Positions 18,538-23,832 of a stretch of 64,000 nucleotides of DNA are shown piece after piece. The notes under the pieces were generated by a model. It did no database searches. It worked only from the letters and a program-made list of their open reading frames with translations, and was not told the DNA's origin. Origin of the DNA: Blastopirellula sediminis. Its GTDB lineage: Bacteria > Planctomycetota > Planctomycetia > Pirellulales > Pirellulaceae. The translations under genes and the position numbers were made by a program. Within the stretch, counting starts at the first letter, position 1; each line of letters opens with the position of its first letter. The DNA lies in NCBI RefSeq assembly GCF_020966755.1, contig NZ_JAJKFT010000004.1, positions 248,001 to 312,000 on the forward strand, given 5' to 3'.

Positions 18538-19650
18538 TTACGCAGTTTGCTTTTCTAAGAGGGCCGCTTCTTGCCGGGCCCGTCGTGCGGCGATGATCCG
18601 CCGGGCGATTTCATCGGCGATGACGCCGATCAGGATCACGCCGCCGACCACCGCGAATTCGAGTTCCTGAATCGACCACATTTCAATCGAGTTCTGCAGC
18701 ACGCGCAGAATCGCCGTGCCGATCACGACGCCGATGATCGAGCCTTCGCCCCCCCGCAAACTGCAACCGCCCAGGACCGCCGCGGCGATCGCGTAGAGTT
18801 CGTAGAAGTTGCCGAAGGTGCTCGGCATCACGCTACCGATGTCGATCGAAAACAGAACGCCGGCGACCCCTGCCAGGCAGGTGCAGATCATGTAGCTGAT
18901 GATGACCATCGTGTCGGTGCGAACGCCGCTATAGCGCGCCGCTTGTTCGTTCTTGCCGAGCGCCTTCAGATGGCGGCCGAAGACGGTCCAGTTGAGCAGG
19001 ATCGCGGCGACGACGGCGATCACCGCCAAGTAGATGATCGGCGGATGGAGCGGCACCCAGTCGTACCAATCGAGGCCGATACGCTCGCCGGCGTCATTCA
19101 GGGCGAAGTGCCCCGGTTGATCGCCGCGGCTGGGGATCCACTTGTGGAAGCTCCAGTAACCTTCGTTGATCCACGGCAGGAAAGGTACAGGGACGCTTCC
19201 CCATTCGTAGTTGATCAAGTAGCCGAGTTTCGAGAAGCCGCCGACCGAACTTCCCCCGGCGGTAGCGCGCGCTAGGCCGCGCAAGATCAACAGACCGCAG
19301 AGCGTTACAACGAATGGTTGCAGTTTCAGCTTGGTAATTAACAGACCATAGACAAGACCAAGCAGCGTCGACATCGCAATCACCAGGCAGATCGCGGCTG
19401 CCGGCGGTAAGTTGTACTGCGCCATCGTAACGCCGAATAAACAACCGACCAGCGCCAGCATCGAACCGATCGAAAGGTCGATGCCGCCGGTGATGATGAC
19501 GAAGGCGACGCCGATTCCCATCACGCCGTAGAGCGACGTCCAGCGGATGATGTTGGCGAGATTGCCGGGCTCCACAAATCGCGGGCGAAAGACCGCCGTC
19601 ACGACGCAGATCACGATCAGCAAAATCAGCATTCCCCAACTCTTATTCAT
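18538..19650 (-). CDS. sugar ABC transporter permease (RbsC-like)
   Basis: A protein of 370 aa with about eight to ten hydrophobic helices and the family signature GGIDLSIGSMLALVG after the second helix. The second half carries GENSLRG-like GGCSLRGGEGSIIGVVIGTAIL. It belongs to the branched BPD_transp_2/RbsC group that imports ribose, xylose, galactose or related sugars. It is longer than E. coli RbsC (about 320 aa) because of a Trp-rich insertion of roughly 50 residues between helices (around WINEGYWSFHKWIP), probably periplasmic. This insertion may contact the unusual binding protein encoded in the same unit. It follows the ATPase gene by 31 bp in a three-gene minus-strand operon. The substrate is not deducible. 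Confidence 0.93.
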   Translation of the reverse strand: MNKSWGMLILLIVICVVTAVFRPRFVEPGNLANIIRWTSLYGVMGIGVAFVIITGGIDLSIGSMLALVGCLFGVTMAQYNLPPAAAICLVIAMSTLLGLVYGLLITKLKLQPFVVTLCGLLILRGLARATAGGSSVGGFSKLGYLINYEWGSVPVPFLPWINEGYWSFHKWIPSRGDQPGHFALNDAGERIGLDWYDWVPLHPPIIYLAVIAVVAAILLNWTVFGRHLKALGKNEQAARYSGVRTDTMVIISYMICTCLAGVAGVLFSIDIGSVMPSTFGNFYELYAIAAAVLGGCSLRGGEGSIIGVVIGTAILRVLQNSIEMWSIQELEFAVVGGVILIGVIADEIARRIIAARRARQEAALLEKQTA

Positions 19651-19681: not shown

Positions 19682-21181
19682 CTAAGTTGTCGCTGCGGTT
19701 GTTGCGCCGGTCGCCAGACGCATGATCGCTTCTTCGCTCAGCTGATCGCGGCGAAGTTCGCCGGCGATTCGCCCCTCGTGCATGACCAGCATGCGGTCTG
19801 ACATGCCGATCACTTCTTCCATTTCGCTGGAAGCGAACAAGATCGCGACTCCCTGGTGCGCGAGCTGTTCCATCATCTCATAGATCTCGTGCTTGGCGCC
19901 GATGTCGATGCCGCGGGTCGGCTCGTCGAGGAGCAGCACCTTCGGCCCAATCGCCAGCCACTTGGCGATCACCGCCTTTTGCTGATTGCCGCCGGAGAGG
20001 AACTGGATAATCTGTCCTGGGCCCGGCGTTTTGATCCGGAGCTTTTGGATCATCTCGTCGGCGGTCGTCTTTTCCCAGCGCGTCGGTAGCATCCCGGCGG
20101 TGGAGGCCCGCATCAGCCCCGGCAGCGTGATGTTCTCGCCAACGGTCATCTCGATCACCAGCCCGTCCTGCTTGCGATCTTCCGGCACGAGGAAGAGCCC
20201 GGCCGCAATCGCATCGCGGGGGCTTTGCAGACGAACCGCCTGGCCGGCGACTTCGACGGAACCGCCCAGTGTGCGGCGTACGCCGAACAACGTTTCGAGC
20301 AATTCCGTCCGTCCGGCGCCGACAAGTCCCGCCAGACCGACGATCTCTCCCGCCTTTAGTTGCAGATCGATCGGATAGGCGCCGTTGCCGCGAACGCGAA
20401 CTCCGCGAGCCGAAAGGACGACCTCGCCCGCTTCATGCGGCGAATGGGGGAAGAACTGATCGAGATCGCGGCCCACCATCAAGCGGACCATCTGTTCGTG
20501 CGTGATCTGGTCTTTTTCAAGTTCGCCGGAGTTGCAGCCGTCACGCAACGCGACGACTCGATCGGCGACATGGTGGATCTCGCTCAGGCGGTGCGAGATG
20601 TACACGACGCTGACGCCGCGGTCTCGCAAGGTGCGAATCACCCGGAACAGGTTCTCCACTTCTCCGGTCGAAAGGCTGGAGGTCGGCTCGTCCATGATCA
20701 GCACTTGCGCGTCGGAGGCGAGCGCTTTGGCGATTTCGACCAACTGCCGATGCCCGATCGAAAGAGAAGCGAGCGACGCGGTCGGCGGAATATCGAGTCC
20801 GACTTGCCGCAGCACTTCGCTGGCGCGACGTTCCATTTCGCGGCGTCGCAAAAAGCCAAAGGTCCTGGGCTCTTTGCCGAGGAAGATGTTCGCCGCGACG
20901 TCCAGGTTGTCGCACAGATTCAGCTCTTGGTGAATCAGCGCGATGCCGAACTTCTCGGCGTCGCGGACATTTCGAATCTCGACCGGGCGGCCGTCGAGCT
21001 TGATTTCTCCCTCGTCGGGCGTTTGAATCCCGGCAAGGATCTTCATCAGCGTGCTTTTGCCTGCGCCGTTCTCGCCGATCACTGCGACCGACTGGCCGGC
21101 GGCGATCGAGAGGCTGACCCCTTTTAGCGCTTTGACGCCGGGGAAGCGTTTCGAGACGTTACAGACTTCGAGCAGCGGCAC
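19682..21181 (-). CDS. sugar ABC transporter ATP-binding protein (RbsA-like, two ABC domains)
   Basis: A protein of 499 aa, the usual size for the fused double ATPase of CUT2 sugar importers. The first domain has Walker A GENGAGKSTLMKIL, a signature segment LSIGHRQLVEIAKAL and Walker B VLIMDEPTSSL. The second has the typical altered P-loop GLVGAGRTELLETL, then LSGGNQQKAVIAKWL and VLLLDEPTRGIDIGAK. The first signature reads LSIGH rather than LSVGQ, a mild change. It lies between the permease and the binding lipoprotein genes, spaced by 31 and 43 bp, so all three are probably one transcript. It powers uptake of an unidentified sugar. Confidence 0.95.
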   Translation of the reverse strand: MPLLEVCNVSKRFPGVKALKGVSLSIAAGQSVAVIGENGAGKSTLMKILAGIQTPDEGEIKLDGRPVEIRNVRDAEKFGIALIHQELNLCDNLDVAANIFLGKEPRTFGFLRRREMERRASEVLRQVGLDIPPTASLASLSIGHRQLVEIAKALASDAQVLIMDEPTSSLSTGEVENLFRVIRTLRDRGVSVVYISHRLSEIHHVADRVVALRDGCNSGELEKDQITHEQMVRLMVGRDLDQFFPHSPHEAGEVVLSARGVRVRGNGAYPIDLQLKAGEIVGLAGLVGAGRTELLETLFGVRRTLGGSVEVAGQAVRLQSPRDAIAAGLFLVPEDRKQDGLVIEMTVGENITLPGLMRASTAGMLPTRWEKTTADEMIQKLRIKTPGPGQIIQFLSGGNQQKAVIAKWLAIGPKVLLLDEPTRGIDIGAKHEIYEMMEQLAHQGVAILFASSEMEEVIGMSDRMLVMHEGRIAGELRRDQLSEEAIMRLATGATTAATT

Positions 21182-21224: not shown

Positions 21225-22346
21225 CTACTCGGACTTTGATTCGGCCGCTTCGGCGGCGGCGTCGCCTCCGATGGCGTACTCAGGCGGAATCGGCCTGTCG
21301 AGCAACTCGTCGATCACGCCGGAGCTGCGCTCTTGGGCGTTCAGCTGTTCGAGCTTGCCGACGAAGATCGCCACTTCGCCCCCATCCGGAATCGCTTCCT
21401 TCACCAGCTTGCCGACGGCGCGACCGGCCAGGTAGTTGCCGGTGCCGATGTAGAACAAGCGGTTCGTTTCCGGCGCGTCGCTGTCGTGGCAGATCACCTT
21501 CATCTTCTCGCAGGCACGGTTGATCAGCGTCTGCTGGTTCTCTTTGTCGATCGGCGAAAGAGCCAGGCCTTGGCAATCGTCGTTCAGCTTCCGCTCGATG
21601 AAACGCTTCTGTTCTTCCGCGCTGGCGGTCGGCGGGTGATAGACGTCGCACGACGCATTGAAGATCGGCTCGGCACAGCGAACCCCTTGTTCGGCAAGGT
21701 CCCAGAAGGGATCGACCGTGTTGGTCAAAAAGGCCAAGCTGACCGGTTCTTTGGTGTCGTAGTCGTCTCGTTCCAGCTTCGGCGCGGGAGCTTTGCCGGC
21801 CATCATCTGTTCGATGTCGGCCTTGAACTGCGCGGCGTTATCGGGGCGGATGACGCGGTGCGGGATGTAGATGATTTTGCTTTCGGGGACGTCGACCTCT
21901 TCGCCGCGAACGAGGGCCGAGAGGTACTCGACCGACTTGAAGCCGAACAAGAACGGCTGCTGCACGACGGTGCCGAAGATCTTCCCTTCCTCAATCCCTT
22001 TCAGCGTCTCGATGTCTTCGTCGAAGCCGACGATCTTGATGTCGTCGAGCTTTCCGGCATTTTCTACGGCCCGCAAAATGGTGGGGGGATTGTAGGCGTA
22101 GAGGCCGACCATGCAGTTCAGATTCGGGTATTTCGAGATCGCGGCCTCGGCGTTTTGCTTCGCCCGGTCATGATTCCCGCTGTCCGAGCGGAGGGCGACG
22201 ACCGTGTATTTGCCGTGGGTAACGGGGAAATCGTACTTGGCGGTTCCTCCTCCTCCGGATGTGCCTGAGGGGTTCGACTCAGAGCTACAGCCGATCGCAG
22301 CCGAGGCGGCGACGGCGCACGCCTTCAGAAAGAGACGACGTTTCAT
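21225..22346 (-). CDS. sugar-binding lipoprotein of ABC importer, circularly permuted
   Basis: A protein of 373 aa. The start MKRRLFLKAC gives a lipoprotein signal with lipobox A-I-G-C20; an upstream extension to 22403 would spoil it. The mature part is a type I periplasmic binding protein, but the halves are swapped relative to RbsB. Residues about 43-190 match the canonical second half (YTVVALRSD, DRAKQNAEAAISKYP, IKIVGFDEDIETLKGI, GTVVQQPFLFG). Residues about 200-350 match the canonical first half (VSLAFLTNTVDPFW, GLALSPIDKENQQTLI, HDSDAP, YIGTGNYLAGRAVG, AQERSSGVIDELL). The frame is unbroken, and normal ATPase and permease genes follow, so it is probably functional as the solute receptor. 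The sugar ligand is unknown. Confidence 0.9.
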   Translation of the reverse strand: MKRRLFLKACAVAASAAIGCSSESNPSGTSGGGGTAKYDFPVTHGKYTVVALRSDSGNHDRAKQNAEAAISKYPNLNCMVGLYAYNPPTILRAVENAGKLDDIKIVGFDEDIETLKGIEEGKIFGTVVQQPFLFGFKSVEYLSALVRGEEVDVPESKIIYIPHRVIRPDNAAQFKADIEQMMAGKAPAPKLERDDYDTKEPVSLAFLTNTVDPFWDLAEQGVRCAEPIFNASCDVYHPPTASAEEQKRFIERKLNDDCQGLALSPIDKENQQTLINRACEKMKVICHDSDAPETNRLFYIGTGNYLAGRAVGKLVKEAIPDGGEVAIFVGKLEQLNAQERSSGVIDELLDRPIPPEYAIGGDAAAEAAESKSE

Positions 22347-22598: not shown

Positions 22599-22718
22599 TT
22601 AGTTGCTGGTGTTAGCCGGCGGAGGAGTCGTCGGGGGTTCCGACGGAGCACAACCGACAAACGGAGCGGCCAAAGAGGCCAACACCACAGCAACCATCAA
22701 CGTCTTCATGATTTTCAT
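22599..22718 (-). CDS. small lipoprotein, 39 aa
   Basis: A very short gene. The peptide begins MKIMKTLMVAVVLASLAAP and has a lipobox F-V-G-C23, then a Pro/Thr-rich tail ending ANTSN. A strong ribosome site (GAAGAAGGG) lies about 8 bases upstream of the ATG and a terminator lies downstream, so the unit has its own complete signals. After cleavage only about 17 residues would remain on the lipid anchor. Proteins of this type (signal, Cys, Pro/Thr tail) are common unannotated genes in planctomycetes. The function is unknown; it may be a peptidoglycan- or membrane-attached lipopeptide. It lies upstream of the ABC transporter on the same strand but is separated by the terminator. Confidence 0.72.
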   Translation of the reverse strand: MKIMKTLMVAVVLASLAAPFVGCAPSEPPTTPPPANTSN

Positions 22719-22950: not shown

Positions 22951-23832
22951 ATGCAGCCGACTCTCGTTCAACGTAATCTTCGCACCCCCGCGCGCCTGTC
23001 GGTCGTGGGAGATTGGCGCATCGGCAATCTGGTGGCGAGAGGCTCCTTCTGCGACGTTTCTCGCGCTCAGCCGGTTGGCGGAAAAGGTATCGCGTGGGAC
23101 TACGCGATTAAAACGTTACGATCCGAATATGCGTCCGATCCGTTAGCGCTCGAAATGTTGCGCCGCGAGGTTCGCGTCTCGCAGCAGGTCGCCTCGCCGC
23201 GGTTGGCCACCGTGTTGGCCCACGGTCTCGACGGCAGCGAAGAGGCCTACGTCGTCTTTCCCTACCTGACCGGGGTGACCCTCAATCAGCTCGTTCCGCG
23301 TCGCGGACCGCTCGCCGCTCGGATCTGGATTATTCGCCAAGTGGCCGAAGGACTGTCAGCGCTGCATGCCGCCGGTTGGCGTCATGGCGATGTGAAGCCC
23401 GAAAACGTCATGATCGACGCCACCGGCCGGGTGACCCTGATTGATCTCGGCTTCGCCACCCAGATTGGGATCGACGAAGTCGACGCCGCCCAATACCAGA
23501 AGGGTACGCCGCGCTACATGGCGCCGGAACTCTTCACGTCGACCTTGGCCGCCTCCGACGCCAGCGACATCTACAGTCTCGGCGTGTTGGCCTTTGAACT
23601 GCTCAGCGGGCATCGATTGTTCGATACCCAAGACCTGGCGAAAATCGTCGCCGCTCATCGGGCGCAGTCGCCTCCCCCGCTTCGCCGATTTCTGCCGCAT
23701 GCTCCCGCGGCGCTCTCGACTTTGGTCGCTCGCATGTTGGCGAAAGATCCTCTTCGCCGTCCAGAAACGATTGATGACGTCGCCGAACAACTCCGCGCTT
23801 TGGAGTTCGAGACGATCGGTAACGTCGGTTAA
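22951..23832 (+). CDS. soluble Ser/Thr protein kinase, minimal
   Basis: A protein of 293 aa consisting of a kinase domain alone. The glycine-rich loop reads VARGSFCDV, the ATP lysine is in YAIKTL, the catalytic loop is HGDVKPENVM (Asp kept, HGD instead of HRD), and the metal motif is DLG instead of DFG. The segment GTPRYMAPELF is a normal activation-segment end. There is no membrane helix or sensor domain, unlike most planctomycete kinases. The HGD/DLG changes occur in the PknB/bacterial kinase spread and do not by themselves imply loss of activity. It is convergent with the SH3 protein gene only 6 bp away. Substrate unknown. Confidence 0.9.
   Translation: MQPTLVQRNLRTPARLSVVGDWRIGNLVARGSFCDVSRAQPVGGKGIAWDYAIKTLRSEYASDPLALEMLRREVRVSQQVASPRLATVLAHGLDGSEEAYVVFPYLTGVTLNQLVPRRGPLAARIWIIRQVAEGLSALHAAGWRHGDVKPENVMIDATGRVTLIDLGFATQIGIDEVDAAQYQKGTPRYMAPELFTSTLAASDASDIYSLGVLAFELLSGHRLFDTQDLAKIVAAHRAQSPPPLRRFLPHAPAALSTLVARMLAKDPLRRPETIDDVAEQLRALEFETIGNVG

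Follow-up and report, generated by a model that had tools for sequence, protein, structure and literature searches.

A naturally circularly permuted sugar-binding lipoprotein of Blastopirellula sediminis and evidence for at least four such permutations in its family

Have the two halves of the receptor encoded in a sugar ABC operon of Blastopirellula sediminis traded places, and if so, how often has such a rearrangement arisen among its relatives? The gene lies in a window of 64,000 nucleotides (positions 248,001 to 312,000 of contig NZ_JAJKFT010000004.1), which is the whole stretch of DNA analyzed here and to which all coordinates below refer. It forms one open frame of 373 aa on the minus strand (22346..21225), and the frame itself together with HMM, PDB, and concatemer comparisons identifies it as the gene for a circularly permuted sugar-binding lipoprotein of the kind called type A below. 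A first-pass annotation had described a single unbroken frame with a lipoprotein signal without naming a strand, and this description applies to the minus-strand frame. The sequence and a lipobox scan place the lipoprotein signal peptide (MKRRLFLKACAVAASAAIGC) at 22287..22346 (minus strand), with the lipobox cysteine at residue 20. The old C-terminal half now comes first (residues 38-183; 21798..22235, minus strand) and corresponds to columns 166-308 of the family HMM, while the old N-terminal half, delimited by the HMM and concatemer BLAST, now comes second (residues 202-356; 21279..21743, minus strand; HMM columns 3-158) and is followed by a short tail that ends the chain. Between the halves, the gap between HMM segments at residues 184-201 (21744..21797, minus strand), together with the sequence there (GKAPAPKLERDDYDTKEP), marks a linker from the old C-terminus to the old N-terminus, much where the annotation had placed it, near residue 190.

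The swapped order appears in several types of comparison. The Pfam model PF13407 (Peripla_BP_4) matches the receptor over both lobes in two stretches (E=1.7e-48), and NCBIfam SBP models match residues 44-152 with their profile ends and residues 206-329 with their profile starts, so that the order of segments is the reverse of that in canonical type I sugar SBPs (Peripla_BP_4). For BLAST, the 308-aa core of a canonical planctomycete relative (L083) served as the reference, both single and written twice. Against the single core the receptor aligned as two swapped pieces (each with E of about 3e-50), whereas against the concatemer, a comparison that the annotation had proposed, it aligned as one continuous piece (residues 46-356 to positions 170-464, 50% identity, E=1e-101). 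As a control, the canonical L091 was compared with the single core and was collinear with it from end to end. Among solved structures, chain A of 5er3, which we take to be a structural-genomics entry for a sugar-binding protein of Rhodopirellula baltica, shares the permuted order along the whole chain and aligned with the receptor in one collinear stretch (residues 38-355, E=8e-99), while TM0114 (2qvc) and other canonical SBPs aligned in two reversed stretches. The canonical relative L083 shows the converse, being collinear with 2qvc and split on 5er3. The concatemer, HMM, and PDB comparisons bear out the swap of halves and agree on new termini at the junction named in the annotation, where the RxxG helix would lead into the following strand; alignment could have revealed the canonical segment order, and the NCBIfam, PDB, and BLAST comparisons instead found it reversed. 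A structure prediction from a two-sequence alignment reached a pLDDT of 38, and the model was left unused.

A contig scan with the receptor protein and narrow peptide patterns returned only two loci. The wider survey covered Planctomycetota and one canonical Verrucomicrobiales locus, with gene starts set mechanically and the order called for each gene with an HMM built from 34 canonical relatives. Most Planctomycetota relatives have the canonical order, and by HMM order there are about 69 canonical, 30 type A, and 9 type B loci. In type A, the class of the receptor under study, the cut separates the helix bearing the conserved Arg of the RxxG motif (RbsB R141) from the "KYTVV" strand, with chains starting at HMM columns 154-168 and ending at columns 152-170 (n=30). 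In type B, the cut immediately precedes the "IKVVGFDED" strand, with starts at columns 222-228 and ends at columns 224-227 (n=9), and no collinear relative of type B was found among solved structures. The cuts fall near residue 150 (type A) and near residue 206 (type B) in RbsB numbering. Domain 2 of RbsB comprises about residues 104-235, and from what is established for RbsB both cuts lie in helix-to-strand loops of its C-terminal lobe. The annotation had suggested looking for the permuted order in other genomes, and it is present in the 30 type A loci and, as single collinear hits, in 39 of the 241 genomes from the family to which B. sediminis belongs; another 7 of the 241 have the type B pattern (both counted from the hit list). 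Forms also coexist within genera: one genus (g23) holds canonical (G146, G535), type A (G023), and type B (G082, G533, G540) members, a second (g68) holds canonical and type A members, and a third (g11) holds types A and B.

Directly downstream of the receptor gene lie a sugar ABC ATPase gene (AraG/XylG/RbsA-like, 499 aa; 19682..21181, minus strand) and then a sugar ABC permease gene (GguB/RbsC-like, 370 aa; 18538..19650, minus strand), both recognized by NCBIfam models, and this order of SBP, ATPase, and permease is kept in most permuted loci. The insertion that the annotation had noticed in the permease is real, comprising 38 aa after residue 158 (residues 159-196; 19063..19176, minus strand) at a variable site. 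Two sites in the permeases of this family accept insertions, one at alignment core columns 76-78 and the other at columns 152-158; these insertions reach 344 aa and occur in canonical and permuted operons alike (L083, L095, L186, and others). The idea that the Trp-rich insertion compensates for the permutation was rejected because it is absent in some permuted members and larger in some canonical ones. In a Rhodopirellula-like type A subclade, no transporter genes adjoin the receptor gene. However, four genomes of this unlinked subclade (G075, G013, G028, G129) have a same-family ATPase-permease pair elsewhere without a receptor (L193-L196), and because these receptor-less pairs occur in genomes with a stand-alone receptor, the receptor and the distant transporter parts may act in trans as a split transporter. 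The ATPase tree is out of step with the permutation states, and receptors and transporters have been shuffled. A divergent Ser/Thr protein kinase gene (22951..23832, plus strand) is a further neighbor and adjoins many SBP genes of the receptor family (also L002, L055, L056, L058, L063-L066, L068, L069, L071, and L072). Many type A loci have it divergently upstream, and some canonical receptors also have it nearby, either upstream or after the permease; with 58 Pkinase matches in a genome of 7.05 Mb, this recurring position is unlikely to be due to chance alone.

Several alternatives to repeated natural permutation need to be weighed. A rearranged contig or faulty gene model could make a normal gene look permuted, but no point in favor of such an artifact was found, and the same order occurs in closed genomes, in Blastopirellula marina (L002, 89% identity), in many genera, and in 5er3. 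Because independent genomes and the 5er3 chain share the order, the assembly rearrangement that the annotation had considered is refuted, its probability being practically nil, and at the level of sequence the order is confirmed as a real natural circular permutation. Whether it arose repeatedly was addressed with a tree of sequences rotated to canonical order (94 rows, 305 columns; unrooted with respect to the direction of gain and loss). Form labels on this tree require five changes, three to type A and two to type B, and both types are polyphyletic. A single ancient permutation of each kind, followed by many reversions or obscured by tree misplacement, would gain from the unrooted tree and from two type A genes (L079 and L203) that lie near the clade of the studied receptor and could belong there. 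However, AU tests reject one clade of all type A members (lnL difference 102, p=0.0003) and one of all type B members (lnL difference 49, p=0.001), and both half-gene trees agree with repeated permutation, giving much the same picture as the full tree with weaker support. In addition, two permuted members (L074 and L075) have halves that share up to about 75% identity with canonical members, and the outside relatives RbsB and TM0114 are canonical; because these more distant SBPs are canonical, that order is taken as ancestral. A single origin for each kind is therefore highly improbable. Joining the studied receptor's clade with L074 and L075 was also rejected (lnL difference 77, p=0.004), while joining L079 to it was not (p=0.205), and L203 fell in the same region as that clade and L079 in a quick tree. 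These two genes may share an origin with the clade of the studied receptor, so the safe count is four events. The data thus point to at least four independent permutations in the planctomycete receptor family, two or more at site A and two at site B, in place of the single case that the annotation had assumed. The best explanation for the studied receptor is that its permutation dates to an ancestor of its Pirellulaceae clade.

The annotation had attributed the permuted order to gene duplication followed by loss of the outer halves, a route that is plausible and has been reviewed as duplication, fusion, and trimming (PMC3320104). The receptor gene would have been duplicated in tandem and fused, with the first copy contributing the signal peptide, after which the outer parts of the fused duplicate would have been lost to leave the permuted receptor. 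However, no duplicated intermediate or relic, including double-length forms, was found near permuted genes at E<0.01. It is this lack that gives some weight to a different route, in which the receptor gene split into two genes that were joined again in reverse order; split two-gene forms were not seen in the loci read, though, and a split secreted receptor would require a second signal peptide, making this route rather unlikely. Duplication, fusion, and trimming is the simplest and most likely path. Another possibility concerns function, namely that the permuted receptor no longer serves transport and has become a sensor for the neighboring protein kinase. The kinase gene upstream of many members and the separation of receptor from ATPase and permease in the Rhodopirellula-like subclade would fit such a role, but the studied receptor has both transporter genes directly downstream, the four unlinked genomes have a receptor-less pair elsewhere, and the kinase also lies near some canonical receptors, so that a sensor role is improbable.

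Instead, the permuted protein most likely acts as a sugar receptor of the ordinary lipid-anchored kind, except that the anchor has shifted to the other lobe. Canonical, type A, and type B members have identical or nearly identical residues at the equivalents of RbsB pocket positions F15, F16, N64, D89, R90, R141, N190, F214, D215, and Q235 (mapped through an alignment of RbsB to the HMM, E=2e-24). With its Cys20 lipobox and adjoining ATPase and permease genes, the studied receptor has the signal and operon of an RbsB-type SBP. Pocket residues, lipoprotein signals, and operons together lend indirect support to the view that the permuted protein is a working receptor. By analogy with 5er3, a solved chain with the same order, it would fold as an ordinary two-lobed SBP whose lobes close on the sugar and then release it to the permease and ATPase encoded next door. 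The new N-terminus at a helix-to-strand loop would put the lipid anchor on the equivalent of the RbsB C-lobe and not the N-lobe. In sum, the locus very probably encodes a permuted lipid-anchored sugar ABC receptor of the RbsB/TM0114 kind, in a family with at least four permutations. All permuted members resemble lipoproteins (by lipobox scan, with two judged by eye), as do many canonical ones (lipobox in 45 of 64 by pattern and about six more by eye). A tie between permutation and lipid anchoring was considered and set aside as not significant, because most canonical members are lipidated too and there are 4-5 events. It is possible, although doubtful, that recurrence at two loops of one lobe, each time in lipid-anchored members, was driven by transfer of the anchor to the other lobe and a resulting change in the docking of the tethered receptor on the permease; if so, permutation would have been recurrently selected and would not reflect drift. 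Three divergent canonical receptors (L175, L176, and L179) show no lipobox but a hydrophobic stretch at the N-terminus, and are perhaps membrane-anchored.

Natural circular permutations are usually regarded as single old events, yet several have arisen independently within this one small family, some of them recently (as the halves up to about 75% identical suggest), and permuted and normal forms coexist in one genus with the operon layout unchanged. The family is therefore a natural experiment that bears on where new termini can be accommodated among the loops, on how permutations get started, and on whether an ABC importer is affected by where its lipid anchor sits. It also carries a caution, since domain annotation with linear models splits permuted proteins. 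Naturally permuted sugar SBPs are already known, and what appears to be new is that the permutations recur, and do so at these two cut sites: searches of a library with few subscription papers turned up no description of planctomycete permuted SBPs and no paper on the permutation of 5er3. TpMglB-2 (Tp0684) of Treponema pallidum is a natural circularly permuted sugar SBP, classified as 'type Ic / cluster Bc', in which the first three N-lobe strands are shifted to the C-terminus, and its authors proposed a link to membrane tethering (PMC4990184). It shares with the receptor studied here a permuted type I sugar SBP chain, a lipid anchor, and a gene location beside its own transporter genes. However, TpMglB-2 is cut in the N-lobe, after the third strand, while the planctomycete cuts lie near RbsB 150 and 206, in the equivalent of the RbsB C-lobe, and recur independently; the different cut and the closer canonical relatives argue against common descent. 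TM0114 (2qvc) and RbsB (2dri) belong to the same family and align with the receptor by halves, pocket positions included, but have the canonical order. The resemblance of 5er3 extends less far in its surroundings, as its sequence suggests that it is a member of the subclade in which the receptor gene stands apart from transporter genes, unlike that of the studied receptor. Natural circular permutations also occur in DNA methyltransferases and in saposin/swaposin (PMC3320104), families that are unrelated and in which intermediates or repeats back duplication, whereas none were found for the planctomycete receptors. As a minor observation at the locus itself, a 39-codon frame upstream of the receptor gene and on the same strand (22718..22599, minus strand; MKIMKTLMVAVVLASLAAPFVGCAPSEPPTTPPPANTSN) resembles a tiny lipoprotein.
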